64,000 nt of DNA from the NCBI RefSeq assembly GCF_023051165.1, contig NZ_JALKIG010000002.1:1-64000 (forward strand), read 5' to 3'. The notes below the pieces were generated by a model that ran no database searches, was not told the DNA's origin, and was given only the letters and a program-made list of their open reading frames with translations. Source of the DNA: Veillonella sp. KGMB01456. Its GTDB lineage: Bacteria > Bacillota > Negativicutes > Veillonellales > Veillonellaceae. Position numbers and translations under genes: made by a program. Positions 46,010-57,396 of the stretch are shown one piece after another (the first letter of the stretch is position 1; the number at the start of each line of letters is the position of its first letter).

Positions 46010-46978
46010 ATGGCAATTTTGCTGCTTTATGGTGATGAGTCACAGCTCATTGATGAAAAGAAACGCGAATTTTTAACTAAATACAAGGATTTGGCGGTGC
46101 AGTCTTTAAATGATGAAGTCGGACCGGGGCGAATTTGTGAAAAGTTAAGCGAAGATTCGCTATTTGGTGAACCAACTTTATATTGTTTAATCAATCCGCC
46201 TATTTTTGTAAAGCCCAATAAAAAGGTTAGTGATGAGTGGCAACAATTGTATAATTTATTGATTACTTATGAAGGTGCCAATCCGGTGTTAATTCTATAT
46301 CATGATACGATAGATAAGCGGACTAAGCATAATAGTGAGTTTTTGAAAAAAATTACGAATGTGGCCTGCATGCGTCTAAAAAAAGAGGAAATAGTCCAAT
46401 GGTTGCAGTCCTATTGTAAGCAAAATGGTTTTACCATAACAATGGACGGACTGGAATATATGAAGCATTTATTGGAATTGTGGCAAGATGTGCCGGTCAG
46501 CTTTTTGCGAACCGAATTTGACCGTTATTTTCTCTTATTGCCGCCGAAAGGCAAAATAACGCAGGATTTTTTAATTCATAATGGTAGTGATTATGGAGCA
46601 AAAAATATCTTTTTATTCAAAGAGGCATTACTGCAAAAAGATGCAGCTACTTTATTGGCTTTGTTTCCTTTTATGCTTCAGAACAAAGAATCGGAACGAG
46701 CCATGTCATATATTGAAGGCCAATTGCGTTTGCAGTTGATGGTTAGCGAATGTAAAGGTACGGGATTATCGGAACGGGAGGTACAGGATTTATTTAAAAA
46801 ATACGAGTCCGCTACGAAACCGTATCCCATTACTTTGGCGTACCGGCAAAGGAACGTGTCAGTACGAGCCTTGGCTAAATTGTTGCGTGGTCTCTATGAA
46901 GTTATGCGCAACAGTCGTCGTGGTGAGGGCGACTTATCTTATTTTAAAGATTTATGTTTAGCCTATTGCAAGTCCTAG
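46010..46978 (+). CDS. holA: DNA polymerase III delta subunit
   Basis: Clamp-loader subunit that opens the beta clamp. The protein is 322 residues with N-terminal MAILLLYGDESQLIDEKK and the C-terminal collar helices. Motifs are weak in this family, but the position next to comEC is the standard Firmicute arrangement. AGGAGG precedes the start, 8 bp after comEC, so the genes share a transcript. Confidence 0.88.
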   Translation: MAILLLYGDESQLIDEKKREFLTKYKDLAVQSLNDEVGPGRICEKLSEDSLFGEPTLYCLINPPIFVKPNKKVSDEWQQLYNLLITYEGANPVLILYHDTIDKRTKHNSEFLKKITNVACMRLKKEEIVQWLQSYCKQNGFTITMDGLEYMKHLLELWQDVPVSFLRTEFDRYFLLLPPKGKITQDFLIHNGSDYGAKNIFLFKEALLQKDAATLLALFPFMLQNKESERAMSYIEGQLRLQLMVSECKGTGLSEREVQDLFKKYESATKPYPITLAYRQRNVSVRALAKLLRGLYEVMRNSRRGEGDLSYFKDLCLAYCKS

Positions 46979-47043: not shown

Positions 47044-48447
47044 ATGAAGAAAAAAGTCGGCATTGTAGCCGGTGTGGTGTTAGGTTTAATTTCATTAAGT
47101 ACGGGCGCCTTTTTATATCCTACAGGCAATGTCATTCAAGGCATGTATTTAGGTGAACGTGATGTGTCACAAGCTAATAAAGAAGAGTTGGCAGATATTA
47201 TTGAAGCGGAAGCGGCCAAGGGACCAACGCATATGAAGGTCAAATGGCAGGATGGTAAGGAAACCACGGTAGCTTTAAAAGATATCGGTGTAAAACCGAA
47301 TGTAGATAAAACCATTGAAAGCCTTATGACTTACGGGTATGAGCCTTCTATGGAAGAATATATTACGAATCGTTGGCATGCATTGATGGCACCGGTATCT
47401 AAAGCTATCGTATATGATGTTAATGTCCCGGCGTTAGAAGCCTTATTGCAGACTTATAGTAAAGAAATCGGGTATACCGGCCATGATGCCTATTTGACGG
47501 TTGAAAACGGACAAGTCGTATTGCATCCGGAAGTACCGGGTAAGCGTCTCGATATTGCTAAGACAGTGGCTAGCTTACAGGAAAAGCTTGCTAAAGGCGA
47601 AGTATCAGGTTTTGAGCTAGTCATCGATAATCAGGCTAAGCCAAAGATCACGGCTGAAACATTAAAAGGGATTAATACCGTATTGGGAACGTATTCCACT
47701 ACTTTTAACTCCGGTGATGTAAGCCGTACCCATAATATTCAAATTGCTACCGATAAAATTAATAATGTGGTGATTATGCCGCACCAAAACTTTTCATTTA
47801 ATGATATTGTTGGTGAACGTACGGCTGAAGCGGGATACGATGATGCACCGGTATTTATGGACGGTAAATTAGTGCCCGGTATTGGCGGTGGCATTTGCCA
47901 AGTTAGTTCCACGCTTTTCAATAGTGCTTTATTGGCGGGGATGGATATTGTAGAACGGACGCCGCATTTTGCACCGGTAGGCTATATGGCGGCCGGTCGT
48001 GATGCTACAGTGGCGTACGGTTATTTAGATTTTATTTTCAAAAATCCGTACGACCATCCAATCTATGTGCTGGCTCATACATCCGGTGATACTTTAACTA
48101 TTAGTATCTTAGGCTTTGCGGCGGATGAACCGCAAGCAGTATCTATTACAGTGGGCAATGAGCAGACAATTCCGAATAAAGTGGAAACTCGTATCGATCC
48201 GTCGGTGACCAAGGAAACAACGACCGAAGGTCATGCAGGCCTTAGTGTGGATACGACGGTACACATTACGTATAAAGACGGCCGAACCAAAACTGACTCC
48301 TTTAACTCCACCTATGATCCGGTAACGACTTATGTTGTAAAACCGGCTAAAGAAACCGCTAAAGACGGTAAGGACGGGGCTAAAGAATCTGATAAAAAAG
48401 AAACACCTACCAATAACGATAAAACTGAATCCGCTAAGTCGGAGTAA
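47044..48447 (+). CDS. VanW family protein, exported
   Basis: Envelope protein of 467 residues with an N-terminal membrane segment (about 5-23), a peptidoglycan-binding-4 type region (about 50-210) and a VanW domain (about 225-370), recognised by the FSFNDIVGERTAEAGY and GGGICQVSSTLFN motifs. A G5-like region follows (about 375-435) and the end is a Lys/Asp-rich tail. VanW members accompany wall or spore proteins, but their reaction is unknown. The start lies 65 bp after holA; polC follows 36 bp after the stop. Confidence 0.9.
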   Translation: MKKKVGIVAGVVLGLISLSTGAFLYPTGNVIQGMYLGERDVSQANKEELADIIEAEAAKGPTHMKVKWQDGKETTVALKDIGVKPNVDKTIESLMTYGYEPSMEEYITNRWHALMAPVSKAIVYDVNVPALEALLQTYSKEIGYTGHDAYLTVENGQVVLHPEVPGKRLDIAKTVASLQEKLAKGEVSGFELVIDNQAKPKITAETLKGINTVLGTYSTTFNSGDVSRTHNIQIATDKINNVVIMPHQNFSFNDIVGERTAEAGYDDAPVFMDGKLVPGIGGGICQVSSTLFNSALLAGMDIVERTPHFAPVGYMAAGRDATVAYGYLDFIFKNPYDHPIYVLAHTSGDTLTISILGFAADEPQAVSITVGNEQTIPNKVETRIDPSVTKETTTEGHAGLSVDTTVHITYKDGRTKTDSFNSTYDPVTTYVVKPAKETAKDGKDGAKESDKKETPTNNDKTESAKSE

Positions 48448-48483: not shown

Positions 48484-51400
48484 ATGAAAGTACGATATCA
48501 TATTGTGCCGAAACGGCGAAAGCAAACGGCTCTTATGATTGAAATTAAGGATAAAACCGTAAAAATTAAAAATGTGCTGTCCCAACCGGATGCATTTAAA
48601 GAGTTACAGAATAAACTGGAAGAATGGTATCAGATAAAGCAGATTCCCGTAAGGCAACTGGCTTCCGATGATGCTGATACTTTATTCTATGGCTATGCTA
48701 CGGCACCGATTCATGATCATACGCCGGAAGAGTACTATATGGATGATCCCGGAGAGATTGAAATCCCTGAGGATGCGTTGGATCAAAAGTATTGGGATGA
48801 AATTTTTCACGCCTCTGAGCATGAAAGTCCTGATGAATTTAACCATCAGGAAGAAGATATGCCACCGGGCTTTGATGAATACGATTTTCCCTTTGCATTA
48901 AGAGAGGATGCGCCTATCAGCATGTATGATGAACCGGTAGAGTGTAACTATGTGCCGGCTAAGACTACGCCGGTAGATGCACAGGCAGGCGGTGGTTTTC
49001 AGTATAGCGGAAAACGAAGACGCAGCTTTAAACGTGATGTGACCGATCCGGGCATGATTTTGGGGCCGGCTATTCACGGCGAACCGGTTAGCATTTCTTC
49101 TGTTAATGAAGAAGTAAACGGCGTCGTTTTTGAAGGCATCTTTGTGTCACTTGAAATGATTGAAACGAAAACCGGTAAAGGTCTCATTAAGGGGCATATC
49201 GTAGATGCCACAAACAGTATCCGTTTTGCCAAGTTTACGGATACCGCCGAAGAGGGCGAGGAGCTCCTTAAAACGATGAATGGACTCAAAGCCGTTCGCG
49301 TACAAGGCGATGTTCATTATGATGATAAATTCGAACGTGATTATACGCTGGTATTGCGTAGCATTCAACAGTTGGAAAGTGGCGCTAAACGTACGGAAAA
49401 TCGTGAAGATTCTCGCGTAGAACTGCATCTTCATACTAAAATGAGTGACCGCGATGCCTTGGTTAATGTGAAAGAGTTATTACAAACGGTAAAAGCTTGG
49501 GGTCACCCGGCGGTAGCCATTACCGACCATGGTGTCATTCAGGCTTTCCCGGAAGCACAGGAAGTGGCCGGCAAATTAGGCGTTAAAGTGATTTACGGCG
49601 TGGAAGGGTATTTGATTGAAGATGAAGAAAATGATACCCGCGCGCATATTATTTTATTGGCCAAAAATCGGGTAGGGCTTCGTAATTTATACAAAATGAT
49701 TTCTATTTCCCATTTACAGTACTACAAACGCCGTCCGCGTTTACCGCGTGCCGTTATTGAAGACCATCGCGAAGGTATCATTATCGGTTCCGCTTGTGAA
49801 GCGGGTGAGCTGATTCGTGCCATCATTAAAGGTGAGTCGCAGGAACGATTATTGGAAATTGCCTCTTTCTATGACTATCTGGAAATCCAGCCATTGGAAA
49901 ATAATCAATTTTTAATGTATGACCGTAAAACCGGTGAAAAAATTCATGATGAGCAGTATCTGATTGACATTAATAAAAAGGTTGTAGAACTTGGCGAATT
50001 ATTGAATAAACCGGTAGTGGCAACCTGTGATGTGCATCATCTGAATGATGATGAAAAAATATATCGCCAGATTATGTTGACTGTATCCGGTTTTAAAGAT
50101 ATTGAACGGACGCCGTCGCTATATTTGCGTACTACCGATGAAATGTTGGAAGAATTTAAATACTTGGGCGAAGAGAAAGCCTATGAAGTGGTAGTTACCA
50201 ACTCGCGCATGATTAATGACAGCATTGAATCTTTGCAACCGGTACCGCAGCGCAAAACGTATTCACCTAAGATTGAAGGGGCCGATAATGCATTGAAGGA
50301 AATGTGTTATAAAAAGGCCAAAGAAATTTATGGGGATCCTTTGCCGGATGTAGTAGCGGAGCGCCTCGATTATGAGTTGACCCGTATTATCGGCAACGGT
50401 TACGGCGTGTTGTATTATATTGCGCATAAACTGGTGCGTAAGTCCTTGGATGACGGTTATTTGGTAGGCTCCCGTGGTTCCGTAGGTTCCTCGTTTGTAG
50501 CCACCATGGCAGATATTACGGAAGTAAATCCGTTACCACCACATTATATTTGCCCGAAATGTAAACATAGCGAATTCTTTACCAAGGGTGAATATGCCGG
50601 TGGCTTTGACTTGCCACGCAAGAATTGTCCGGAATGCGGTACACCGCTTCACACCAACGGCCATGATATTCCGTTTGCTATATTCATGGGCTTTAATGGC
50701 GATAAGGTACCTGATATTGACCTTAACTTCTCCGGTGATTATCAGCCACGCGCTCATAAATACACGGAAGAATTGTTCGGTCGTGATAATGTATTCCGCG
50801 CCGGCACAATCGGTACGATTGCTGAAAAAACAGCAATTGGTTATGTTAAAAAATATGCGGAAGCAAATGATATTCAAGCGCGTCAAGGCTTTTTGGAATC
50901 CTTGGCCAAAGGCGTTACGGGTGTAAAAAATACAACCGGTCAGCATCCGGGGGGCATCATGGTTTGTCCGCGCGATATGGATGTGCATGAGTTCACACCG
51001 GTGCAATATCCGGCCAATAAAAAAGACAGTGGCATCATTACGACTCACTTCGATTATCACTCCTTTGAAGGTTGTATGACGAAGCTTGATATACTGGGCC
51101 ATGATGATCCGACAATTATTCGTATGTTGGAAGATATTACCGGTATCGACGTTCAAACGATTCCGTTTGACGATCCGGAAACACTCAGCTTGTTCTCGTC
51201 CACTAAAGCTATCGGTTTAACACCGGAGCAGCTGATGGGTGATAAAGTTGCATCCTTGGCCGTACCGGAATGTGGTACCGGCTTTGTACGGCGTATGTTG
51301 GAAGATTCCAAGCCGAAATGTTTCTCCGACATAGTACGTATTTCCGGTTTTTCTCATGGTACGAATGTATGGCTTGACAATGCGCAAACTTTAATTAAAA

Positions 51401-52164
51401 ATGGTACTTGCCAATTGAATGAAGCCATTTCTACCCGTGATGACATCATGAACTTCTTGATGCATCGCGGTATTAAGCCAATTACTTGCTTTAAAGTCAT
51501 GGAAAACGTGCGTAAGGGCAAGAAGATTGATAAGTTGAATAAATTGGGGCAAAAAGAAACGGATTACGAAGAACAGATGCGTGCCGGTGGTATTCCGGAA
51601 TGGTTCATTGAGTCTTGTAATAAAATTTCCTATTTATTCCCCCGTGCCCATGCGGTGGCTTATGTAATGATGGCGTTTCGCATTGCCTGGTTTAAAATTA
51701 ATTATCCGTTGGCATTCTATGCCGCTTATTTCTCGATTCGTGCCAAAGCGTATGACATGAAAATAATGGCAAGTTCACTCAGTGAACAGCGTGCCGAGTT
51801 TGATCGTTTGAAAGCACTGGACCGCAAGGCAAGCAATAAAGACAAAGACATGATGAGTGCCTTGGAAGTTTCCATGGAAATGAAGCAGCGCGGTTTTGAT
51901 TTCTTAGTGGCTGATCTTAATTACTCAGAAGCCCGTCGTTTTACTATTCATAACGGTGCTTTATTGCCGCCGTTCTTGGCTGTGGACAGCTTGGGTGAAA
52001 AAGTAGCGGATATGATTGTGGCGGAACGGAAAGAAAAACCGTTTACATCAGTTAAAGACTTACAACGTCGTTGCAAGGTTTCCGGCAGCATCATCGCAAC
52101 TATGCGAGATTTAGGTTGTTTTAAAGATTTACCGGAAGATGAACAAATGAGTTTATTCGGCTAA
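48484..52164 (+). CDS. polC: PolC-type DNA polymerase III alpha, without exonuclease domain
   Basis: Main replicative polymerase of Firmicutes. An acidic N-terminal region (about 60-150) precedes the OB fold (about 200-295), PHP domain (HLHTKMSD near 313-320; GVEGYLI near 372-378; CDVHHLN), four-cysteine zinc site (CPKC and CPEC near 688-718) and palm with PDIDLNF (about 743-749). In Bacillus the 3'-5' exonuclease of about 190 residues is inserted after GLEANIVDDG. Here the PHP sequence passes straight from GYLIEDEEND to HIILLAKNRVGLRNLYKM, so the DEDD exonuclease is absent. Length 1226 against about 1440 agrees with this. It is preceded by GAAGGA. Confidence 0.96.
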   Translation: MKVRYHIVPKRRKQTALMIEIKDKTVKIKNVLSQPDAFKELQNKLEEWYQIKQIPVRQLASDDADTLFYGYATAPIHDHTPEEYYMDDPGEIEIPEDALDQKYWDEIFHASEHESPDEFNHQEEDMPPGFDEYDFPFALREDAPISMYDEPVECNYVPAKTTPVDAQAGGGFQYSGKRRRSFKRDVTDPGMILGPAIHGEPVSISSVNEEVNGVVFEGIFVSLEMIETKTGKGLIKGHIVDATNSIRFAKFTDTAEEGEELLKTMNGLKAVRVQGDVHYDDKFERDYTLVLRSIQQLESGAKRTENREDSRVELHLHTKMSDRDALVNVKELLQTVKAWGHPAVAITDHGVIQAFPEAQEVAGKLGVKVIYGVEGYLIEDEENDTRAHIILLAKNRVGLRNLYKMISISHLQYYKRRPRLPRAVIEDHREGIIIGSACEAGELIRAIIKGESQERLLEIASFYDYLEIQPLENNQFLMYDRKTGEKIHDEQYLIDINKKVVELGELLNKPVVATCDVHHLNDDEKIYRQIMLTVSGFKDIERTPSLYLRTTDEMLEEFKYLGEEKAYEVVVTNSRMINDSIESLQPVPQRKTYSPKIEGADNALKEMCYKKAKEIYGDPLPDVVAERLDYELTRIIGNGYGVLYYIAHKLVRKSLDDGYLVGSRGSVGSSFVATMADITEVNPLPPHYICPKCKHSEFFTKGEYAGGFDLPRKNCPECGTPLHTNGHDIPFAIFMGFNGDKVPDIDLNFSGDYQPRAHKYTEELFGRDNVFRAGTIGTIAEKTAIGYVKKYAEANDIQARQGFLESLAKGVTGVKNTTGQHPGGIMVCPRDMDVHEFTPVQYPANKKDSGIITTHFDYHSFEGCMTKLDILGHDDPTIIRMLEDITGIDVQTIPFDDPETLSLFSSTKAIGLTPEQLMGDKVASLAVPECGTGFVRRMLEDSKPKCFSDIVRISGFSHGTNVWLDNAQTLIKNGTCQLNEAISTRDDIMNFLMHRGIKPITCFKVMENVRKGKKIDKLNKLGQKETDYEEQMRAGGIPEWFIESCNKISYLFPRAHAVAYVMMAFRIAWFKINYPLAFYAAYFSIRAKAYDMKIMASSLSEQRAEFDRLKALDRKASNKDKDMMSALEVSMEMKQRGFDFLVADLNYSEARRFTIHNGALLPPFLAVDSLGEKVADMIVAERKEKPFTSVKDLQRRCKVSGSIIATMRDLGCFKDLPEDEQMSLFG

Positions 52165-55395: not shown

Positions 55396-55447
55396 ATGAA
55401 AATATTGTAATTAATTTCATTTTTGTAAGGTTGATTAGGTGGTATTA

Positions 55448-57396
55448 ATGAAGAAGAAACAAAGAGATATGCTGACTTTGCTTGTTTTGGGGCGTTTGCT
55501 GTATGTGGCGCAAATGAAGTTGGAGCGTCAGCTATAGATTATGTAGCTGTTAACTCCAGTGATACAGTTCCGGTTGCAAACGGTACTAATAGTGTAGCGG
55601 TAGGACCTAATTCTACGGCTGAAGCTGTGAATAGTATTACTGTAGGAAACGGCGCCGGCGTCGCTAATGTGGCCGCTCATGGTGTAGCTATTGGCAGGAA
55701 TGCTAAAGTATTGCAATCGGATAATTATAGCGATACTATGTCGAATTCGGATAAAAGAAAAACAAATGGCCAAACATCCATCGCTATAGGTGTTAATGCT
55801 GAAACGAAATGGAGTGGTGCTACGGCCGTAGGTGCGGGAGTCAAGGTAAATGGTCTAAATGCGTCAGCTTTCGGCAACGGAGCAAACGCCATTGGCGAAA
55901 ACAGTATTGCACTCGGTGGTGCCTCTATGAGTGAGACGTATACGTATTTTGATACGACTTACAATATGAATAATGCTATTGCAGTGGGTAAAGAAGCTCA
56001 TGTGGGAGCCGGGCGCGGTATTGCTGTCGGATTAAAAACTAAAGCTGAAGGTATAGCTTCGACGGCCCTTGGGACACAGGCTGAAGCTTTAGGTGAAAGT
56101 GATACGGCTATTGGGAACCAAGCCCATGCCAACGGTTGGGGCGCTTCGGCATTCGGTACCATTGCTAAAGCGGATGGTATGAATGCAACCGCTATCGGTA
56201 ATGATGCAAGAACTCAAAATACCTATGCCGTAGCGTTAGGCACTCATTCTATTGCAACTGCAGAAGGAAGTACATCGCTGGGCCCTAACTCTCAGGCAGA
56301 TGGTAGATTTTCAACTTCCGTAGGTTATAATGTGCAAACGGCCGGACTTCACGGAATATCAATCGGTACCAATACGGTGCGCAACGCCAATGCGAATAAC
56401 GATGCCAATGCGGGTGGCGATTATGCTATTTCCATGGGATCCGATACCCATGCACGCAATACCGACTCTATTGCCATCGGTCGCCAAGCTGATTCTACCA
56501 GTGCCGGCGGTATAGCTATAGGCGCAGATTCTTTCGTGGAAACTCAAGATGGCGTAGCTTTAGGCAGTCAGTCCATAGCTAATCGTTATAGTTTAAAAGA
56601 TGTATCGGTAGTATCTGATGCCTCCGCGGCGGATGAACAAGTGTATGGGGCTGATAAAGCTAAAGATGCCGACAAAACTGCTATTGCTAACACAGTTAAA
56701 GGCAATGCAGGGGCGGTTTCGGTAGGTAATGATGATATGAAACGTCAAATCGTTAATGTGGCGGCCGGTTCGGAAGATAGCGATGCCGTTAATGTGGCAC
56801 AGCTTCGTTCGGTTAAAAATTCAATTGAAACTACCGTGAAAGAATATACGAATGGTTTTACAACTGTTATAAACAATCATACCAGTCAGATAAATGAATT
56901 AAATAATCGAGTAGATAACATTGAGGGCAAAGTTAATACCATAGAACGGGATGTTACCCAAATGAAAGGAGAAATGCACAAAGTCGGTGCTATGTCGGCG
57001 GCCTTAGCCGGTTTAAGAAACCTCGCTTTTGATCCAAGCAGTAAATTAAACTTCTCTGTGGCCGGCGGCTTTTACCGAGAAGCTTCGGCAATGGCATTAG
57101 GTGCGTCCTATCAACCGAATGAAGACGTACTCTTTGCTGTAGGAACAAGCGTGGGCAATAATGACAACATGTATAACGTGTCCGCAACCTTCAAAGTGGG
57201 ACCAAGTGAAAAACGTCGTGCTTATATTAACGATGAACGCATGGCGCCAATCAGCACCGTTTATGTACTCAACGATAAAATGACCCTGTTGGAAAAAGAA
57301 AACCAAATTGCTAATCAGAAAATAGACCAACTAGCTCAAGAAAACGTAGAACTCCTTCAAAAACTTGAACTGTTAATGACAAAACTCTCCGTTTAA
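55448..57396 (+). CDS. YadA-type trimeric autotransporter adhesin, frameshifted signal region
   Basis: Surface adhesin. The passenger head (about 55580-56600) has many SIAIG/AxAxG-type left-handed-roll repeats. A VNVAQLRSVKNSI neck, a coiled-coil stalk and a YadA anchor (GAMSAALAGLRNLAF to VSATFKVG, about 56980-57205) follow. About 60 residues continue beyond the anchor, including a heptad-rich helix, which is unusual. The ATG at 55448 after AGGTGG opens MKKKQRDMLTLLVLG, then a G4 run (55489-55492) shifts the frame and translation stops at 55538. One extra G would join it to AFAVCGANEVGASA, completing a signal peptide, and to the rest. As written, only the GTG at 55627 opens the main frame, without a signal peptide. 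Confidence 0.85.

Follow-up and report, generated by a model that had tools for sequence, protein, structure and literature searches.

PolC-type DNA polymerase III alpha subunits without the exonuclease domain were described by Timinskas et al. in 2014, who found that 6% of PolCs were without Exo, all but one of them from Clostridia and Negativicutes, and that such enzymes made up 16% of the PolC + DnaE1 systems, for which the authors asked whether DnaE1 does the bulk work (PMC3919608). The canonical PolC of Bacillus subtilis, Staphylococcus and Geobacillus has a DEDDh exonuclease in the PHP loop; the Geobacillus structure 3f2b comes from a protein crystallised without the exonuclease and NTD (PMC3919608 Fig. 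1 legend). Proofreading by the PHP domain itself is known from DnaE1 of Mycobacterium tuberculosis and Thermus. In M. tuberculosis DnaE1 nine PHP residues hold three zincs and a change of D23 or D226 abolishes the exonuclease, Taq Pol III alpha has an 18-residue loop with all PHP ligands conserved, and the PHP of Geobacillus PolC, with one of its ligands changed, shows no exonuclease activity (PMC5636811). The ligand set HHDHEHCDH has been used as the definition of an 'active' PHP (PMC12926913). A dedicated proofreader is considered necessary for faithful replication, and PolCs without the exonuclease (exo-less PolCs) provide a natural test of whether PHP suffices for PolC.

The polC gene studied here lies in a window of 64,000 nucleotides from Veillonella sp. 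KGMB01456 (Negativicutes). Its product falls in the exo-less subgroup, as it has no Exo insertion, a DnaE1 partner and a host within Clostridia/Negativicutes. With the enzymes of Timinskas et al. it shares the OB-PHP-Pol3-HhH order, the lack of Exo in PHP, the PolC + DnaE1 genome and the class, and nothing essential differs, except that such proteins were ~6% of PolCs there and are class-wide and common in other Bacillota families here. The finding is real, clean and wider than described; it is not new for the lineage, a matter that the initial annotation had left open and that the 2014 description settles (PMC3919608).

Architecture of the window PolC

The open reading frame at 48484..52164 of the forward strand starts with ATG, is uninterrupted and constitutes a complete polC of 1226 aa with the following features.

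48484..52164, + strand: polC, PolC-type DNA polymerase III alpha of 1226 aa without the DEDD exonuclease (curated models, Pfam, structure alignments)
49096..49398, + strand: OB-fold region, residues ~205-305 (3f2b alignment; modelled by AlphaFold with five beta strands and one helix)
49420..50037, + strand: PHP domain core with nine metal ligands (Pfam, alignment, motif HHDHEHCDH)
49606..49644, + strand: exo-less junction, residues 375-387 (alignment; in the model a short turn joining two neighbouring strands)
50467..50496, + strand: GSRGSVGSSF, conserved polymerase motif, residues 662-671 (sequence)
50551..50637, + strand: zinc-binding cysteine pairs CPKC (690-693) and CPEC (715-718) (sequence)
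50710..50730, + strand: catalytic PDIDLNF, residues 743-749 (sequence)
51898..52140, + strand: tandem helix-hairpin-helix, HHH_6, residues 1139-1219 (Pfam)
52144..52158, + strand: C-terminal sliding-clamp binding motif QMSLF, residues 1221-1225 (sequence)

The protein passed the cut-offs of the curated NCBIfam PolC models NF001688 (1445.4 bits, cut-off 873) and TIGR01405 (1345.2 bits, cut-off 1043), and it has the OB region N-terminal to PHP and the C-terminal clamp motif of a PolC, with the PHP-inserted DEDDh absent. Pfam matched PHP, DNA_pol3_alpha, finger and HHH_6 and found neither RNase_T nor an OB domain in the 1226 aa. The polymerase core, zinc site, OB, PHP and clamp motif are common to the window PolC and canonical PolC, and almost every one of the 81 listed PolCs ends in a motif of the QMSLF type.

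The site of the missing domain was located by three alignments. The NCBIfam model match jumps the exonuclease segment and picks up again at residue 386 (model position 614 of 1445), the alignment with the full-length PolC structure 9qpc is interrupted at query 381/387 (chain 432/640), which is exactly the insertion point, and the alignment with 3f2b starts at residue 204 and is unbroken. The PHP ligands are H315, H317, D324, H349, E374, H388, C438, D516 and H518, where the gap from E374 to H388 is 13 residues as against ~200 with DEDDh in exo-bearing PolCs. In the AlphaFold model of the OB-PHP region (pLDDT 88), whose best structural match is 3f2b, the flanking strands are linked by a short turn.

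The clean absence of the exonuclease, claimed in the initial annotation, is thus agreed upon by Pfam, NCBIfam, the 9qpc and 3f2b alignments and the class-wide exonuclease profile. The annotation had also placed the insertion point in PHP correctly and had rightly seen from motifs that the PHP ligands, zinc site and polymerase site are retained, as alignment confirmed; the block that it put at ~190 residues is indeed lacking, its size being ~200. Searches for the exonuclease domain elsewhere in the protein were negative, with no RNase_T by Pfam and, among the listed matches of the exonuclease profile over genome and class, none in a PolC-sized frame. The second full-length PolC that the annotation had named as grounds for refutation was absent from the 2.47 Mb, 99.9% complete genome, which carries a single PolC and a single DnaE; with one PolC and an uninterrupted frame, truncation or misassembly of the gene and a further full-length PolC elsewhere were ruled out. 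PolC frames of equal length occur in six congeners, the class shares this architecture throughout, and the window PolC is truly a replicative enzyme, of the exo-less type that is fixed in its class.

Two genes upstream of polC lies holA for the Pol III delta subunit (46010-46978, + strand), preceded by a ComEC-like gene and separated from polC by a VanW-like gene (47044-48447). Further downstream, 55435-57396 (+ strand) encodes a repetitive protein resembling a YadA-type trimeric autotransporter adhesin, which would fit a diderm Negativicute.

Distribution and history of the PolC exonuclease

PolC was detected in all 300 class genomes searched except two with weak matches, which suggest assembly gaps; the frames listed are of ~1170-1340 aa, and shorter ones resemble contig breaks. 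Four class members have longer frames (1511-1761 aa), whose interpretation as exo-bearing was rejected, as direct reading identified exo-less PolCs. A profile built from 39 PolC exonucleases, with which a true PolC exonuclease is expected at the top of the ranking, was run on 301 class genomes and gave none in a PolC-sized frame among the best ~150 matches listed; most of these were free-standing proteins of ~180-460 aa or frames as long as a helicase (~730-1012 aa). Sensitivity was controlled with the DnaQ-like protein of the window genome, which as a query matched the PolC exonuclease in 28/28 exo-bearing genomes.

Across the phylum, PolC frame lengths are bimodal (~1220-1260 vs 1400-1490 aa). 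Among 81 PolCs from ~70 families, the PHP E-to-H spacing was 13-40 in 51, 199-217 in 29 and 85 in one (G362); the junction measures 13-23 residues in most exo-less PolCs and is similar in length to the loop of Taq Pol III alpha (18 residues). At the G362 locus (L057) an 85-residue low-complexity linker takes the place of the exonuclease and may represent a further stage of loss. The exonuclease was intact in 76/77 PolCs of named genomes, a scan biased to exo-bearing PolCs by its full-length first query and hence no census. The locus L309, taken up as lacking D-x-E-T-G, was rejected as all five catalytic residues are present.

On an unrooted PolC tree built from the core domains with the insert left out, exonuclease presence changes at least 7 times across ~70 Bacillota families, and at least 3 of the changes are forced by well-supported branches. 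With DnaE as root, well-supported branches force at least 2 changes, on a DnaE1 outgroup branch of 10 substitutions per column that makes the root position unreliable, so that no root is claimed. As the tree is unrooted, it does not give the direction of change, and loss and primary absence are inseparable for this class. Of the 'domain loss' in the initial annotation, the absence of the domain therefore stands, and loss itself is shown only in family f50.

Among the 15 PolCs of this distant family, 12 retain all DEDDh residues, two species have a dead relic and one has a deletion. The last three belong to genus g175, in which G535 (loci L074, L243 and L220) and G423 (L222) have a nearly full-length exonuclease with the catalytic residues replaced, and G394 (L103 and L214) has the exonuclease deleted with ~25 extra residues left. 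The replacements in G535 include DIETTG to LALGTTG and HHRAGDD to EEGRGAS, and its PHP site is intact; it matches JAAYIC010000112.1, the record of a 'Bacillota bacterium' assembled from a metagenome, and is the only member of f50 matched to a named record. Pfam no longer matches the relic exonuclease, and the best match of its predicted fold was PolC exonucleases, a result biased that way by the intact relatives in the model alignment. Between the two relics dN/dS was ~0.36 in the exonuclease and 0.10 in the rest of PolC, as compared with ~0.09-0.14 for the exonuclease in intact pairs, and the nonsynonymous excess of the exonuclease over the rest was 3.2-fold in odds in relics and 1.7-2.2 in intact pairs. 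By these sequence comparisons, constraint on the relic is relaxed and still present.

The occurrence of intact, dead and deleted exonucleases within one family signifies that the direction there is loss. The relics contradict a statement published in 2026 that Pol III DnaQ domains and proofreaders are not inactivated, and no publication on the eroding f50 exonuclease was found in the open-licence literature. The series also offers closely matched pairs for testing PHP proofreading.

The PHP site as a proposed proofreader in cis

All nine PHP ligands were kept in 52/52 exo-less PolCs from ~45 families, and the window PolC, which is among them, has the nine-ligand pattern HHDHEH[C/H]DH of PHP-proofreading polymerases. 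The ligand at D516 was replaced by N in 4/29 exo-bearing PolCs of the 81-PolC set, all in one clade, and in 0/52 exo-less ones. In the named set the same replacement was restricted to exo-bearing Bacilli (Pseudalkalibacillus, Alteribacillus and Shouchella), and by structure alignment 3f2b has N at this position; Geobacillus PolC and its kin in Bacilli are thus without one PHP ligand (D to N), where the window PolC has nine. The window PolC shares the nine-ligand trinuclear PHP site, the loop and the lack of an inserted exonuclease at the same place with the proofreading DnaE1 of M. tuberculosis and Thermus, from which it differs as these are of the other Pol III type and their PHP activity has been measured, whereas the window PolC is known from sequence and model.

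Judged from sequence, model and analogy, zinc-dependent PHP proofreading in cis, together with an intact DnaE1 and MutS/MutL, is probably the most economical explanation, if by a modest measure. The window PolC would polymerise and bind the clamp like any PolC, and its trinuclear PHP site would act as a 3'-5' proofreading exonuclease in cis as in the two DnaE1 enzymes. Loss of DEDDh, repeated among relatives, would then have been tolerated because Clostridia-type PolCs retained a working PHP site, a loss that Bacillus-type PolCs with D516 changed to N could not have afforded, while DnaE1 with its own PHP site and MutS/MutL would share the fidelity load. The initial annotation had put forward either trans proofreading or a raised error rate; the former is taken up below, and PHP activity, the best-supported option, had there been given in brackets only.

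The support from ligand conservation has its bounds. Exo-bearing Clostridia keep the nine ligands too, so that exo-less enzymes are not set apart by this conservation, and the inactive-PHP cases form one clade on the tree, so the association of PHP loss with exonuclease presence is a single event and not statistically independent. Folding or a different hydrolytic function may also be the reason why the site is retained, and no demonstration of PHP exonuclease activity in any PolC was found in the literature surveyed.

The window genome encodes a full-length DnaE1 with the PHP motif HHDHEHCDH, which would also suit bulk replication by a self-proofreading DnaE1 beside a secondary PolC whose proofreading matters little, a possibility raised for PolC + DnaE1 bacteria by Timinskas et al. 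(PMC3919608). We regard this as improbable, since dispensability is hard to reconcile with a PolC found in all but the two weakly matching genomes of the 300 in the class, its polymerase and clamp motifs kept. Less probable again is a PolC that does no proofreading and leaves its errors to mismatch repair. MutS and MutL are encoded in the genome and related lineages have lost the exonuclease, in keeping with such a course; however, it leaves the strict retention of nine ligands in 52/52 exo-less PolCs unexplained.

A DnaQ-like exonuclease with a clamp-type tail

The check for free-standing DnaQ-type exonucleases proposed in the initial annotation yielded three RNase_T proteins in the window genome. 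One is a UvrD-like helicase in which the exonuclease is embedded, the second lies in a 379-aa frame, and the third is DnaQ-like and 206 aa long.

L002:1357-1974, - strand (in L002); G000:C27:21420-22037: 206-aa DnaQ-like exonuclease with C-terminal EQMSFF (RNase_T)

The 206-aa protein could proofread in trans if tethered to the sliding clamp. It has all catalytic motifs and an RNase_T score of 83.6 bits, among solved structures it is closest to the Thermotoga PolC-type exonuclease and E. coli epsilon, and its extreme C terminus EQMSFF resembles a clamp motif. The tail recurs in 16 Veillonellaceae loci as QMSFF (13/16) or QD(T/A)FF (3/16) despite a diverged linker before it, and the ending QLSFF of some PolCs in the phylum makes the xxFF form plausible as a clamp motif; in a pattern scan of the genome, clamp-motif matches were about as numerous as in the control and hence uninformative. 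However, the QMSFF tail is absent in the sister family f2 and the other class families looked at, which are equally exo-less, the protein falls under the epsilon-type cut-offs (PRK06195, 224.9 vs 373 bits; TIGR00573, 66.5 vs 71.5), and clamp-bound exonucleases may serve repair instead. Used as a query, it found no match in about one-fifth of the class genomes and in 19/35 genomes outside the class, nearly all exo-less. The PolC exonuclease profile likewise gave no DEDDh match at E <= 1e-10 in the near-complete exo-less genomes G037, G013, G049 and G054. Since a DnaQ-like exonuclease is undetectable in some exo-less genomes, we discarded the idea that a universal DnaQ in trans is the general answer. 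Trans proofreading of the window PolC is unlikely, and from its sequence the 206-aa protein is a credible clamp-recruited exonuclease for Veillonellaceae, not a general substitute. No publication on the clamp-type tail was found in the open-licence literature; together with the eroding exonuclease of f50 it is a new lead.

Proofreading by PHP in cis may be extended to a fuller and more tentative history, in which PolC repeatedly shed DEDDh via a dead stage as in g175 of f50, the whole class now proofreads PolC by PHP alone, and in Veillonellaceae a new C-terminal tail also brings a free DEDDh exonuclease to the clamp.

Apart from these, genus g39 of family f16 (G037, G108, G132, G156, G162 and G201) had no PolC exonuclease profile match at E <= 1e-10. 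The embedded exonuclease of the window genome is a DEDDh domain in the C-terminal part of an 870-aa UvrD-type helicase (L043:2438-5047, - strand; G000:C16), and frames of ~860-1012 aa with the same match recur through much of the class.
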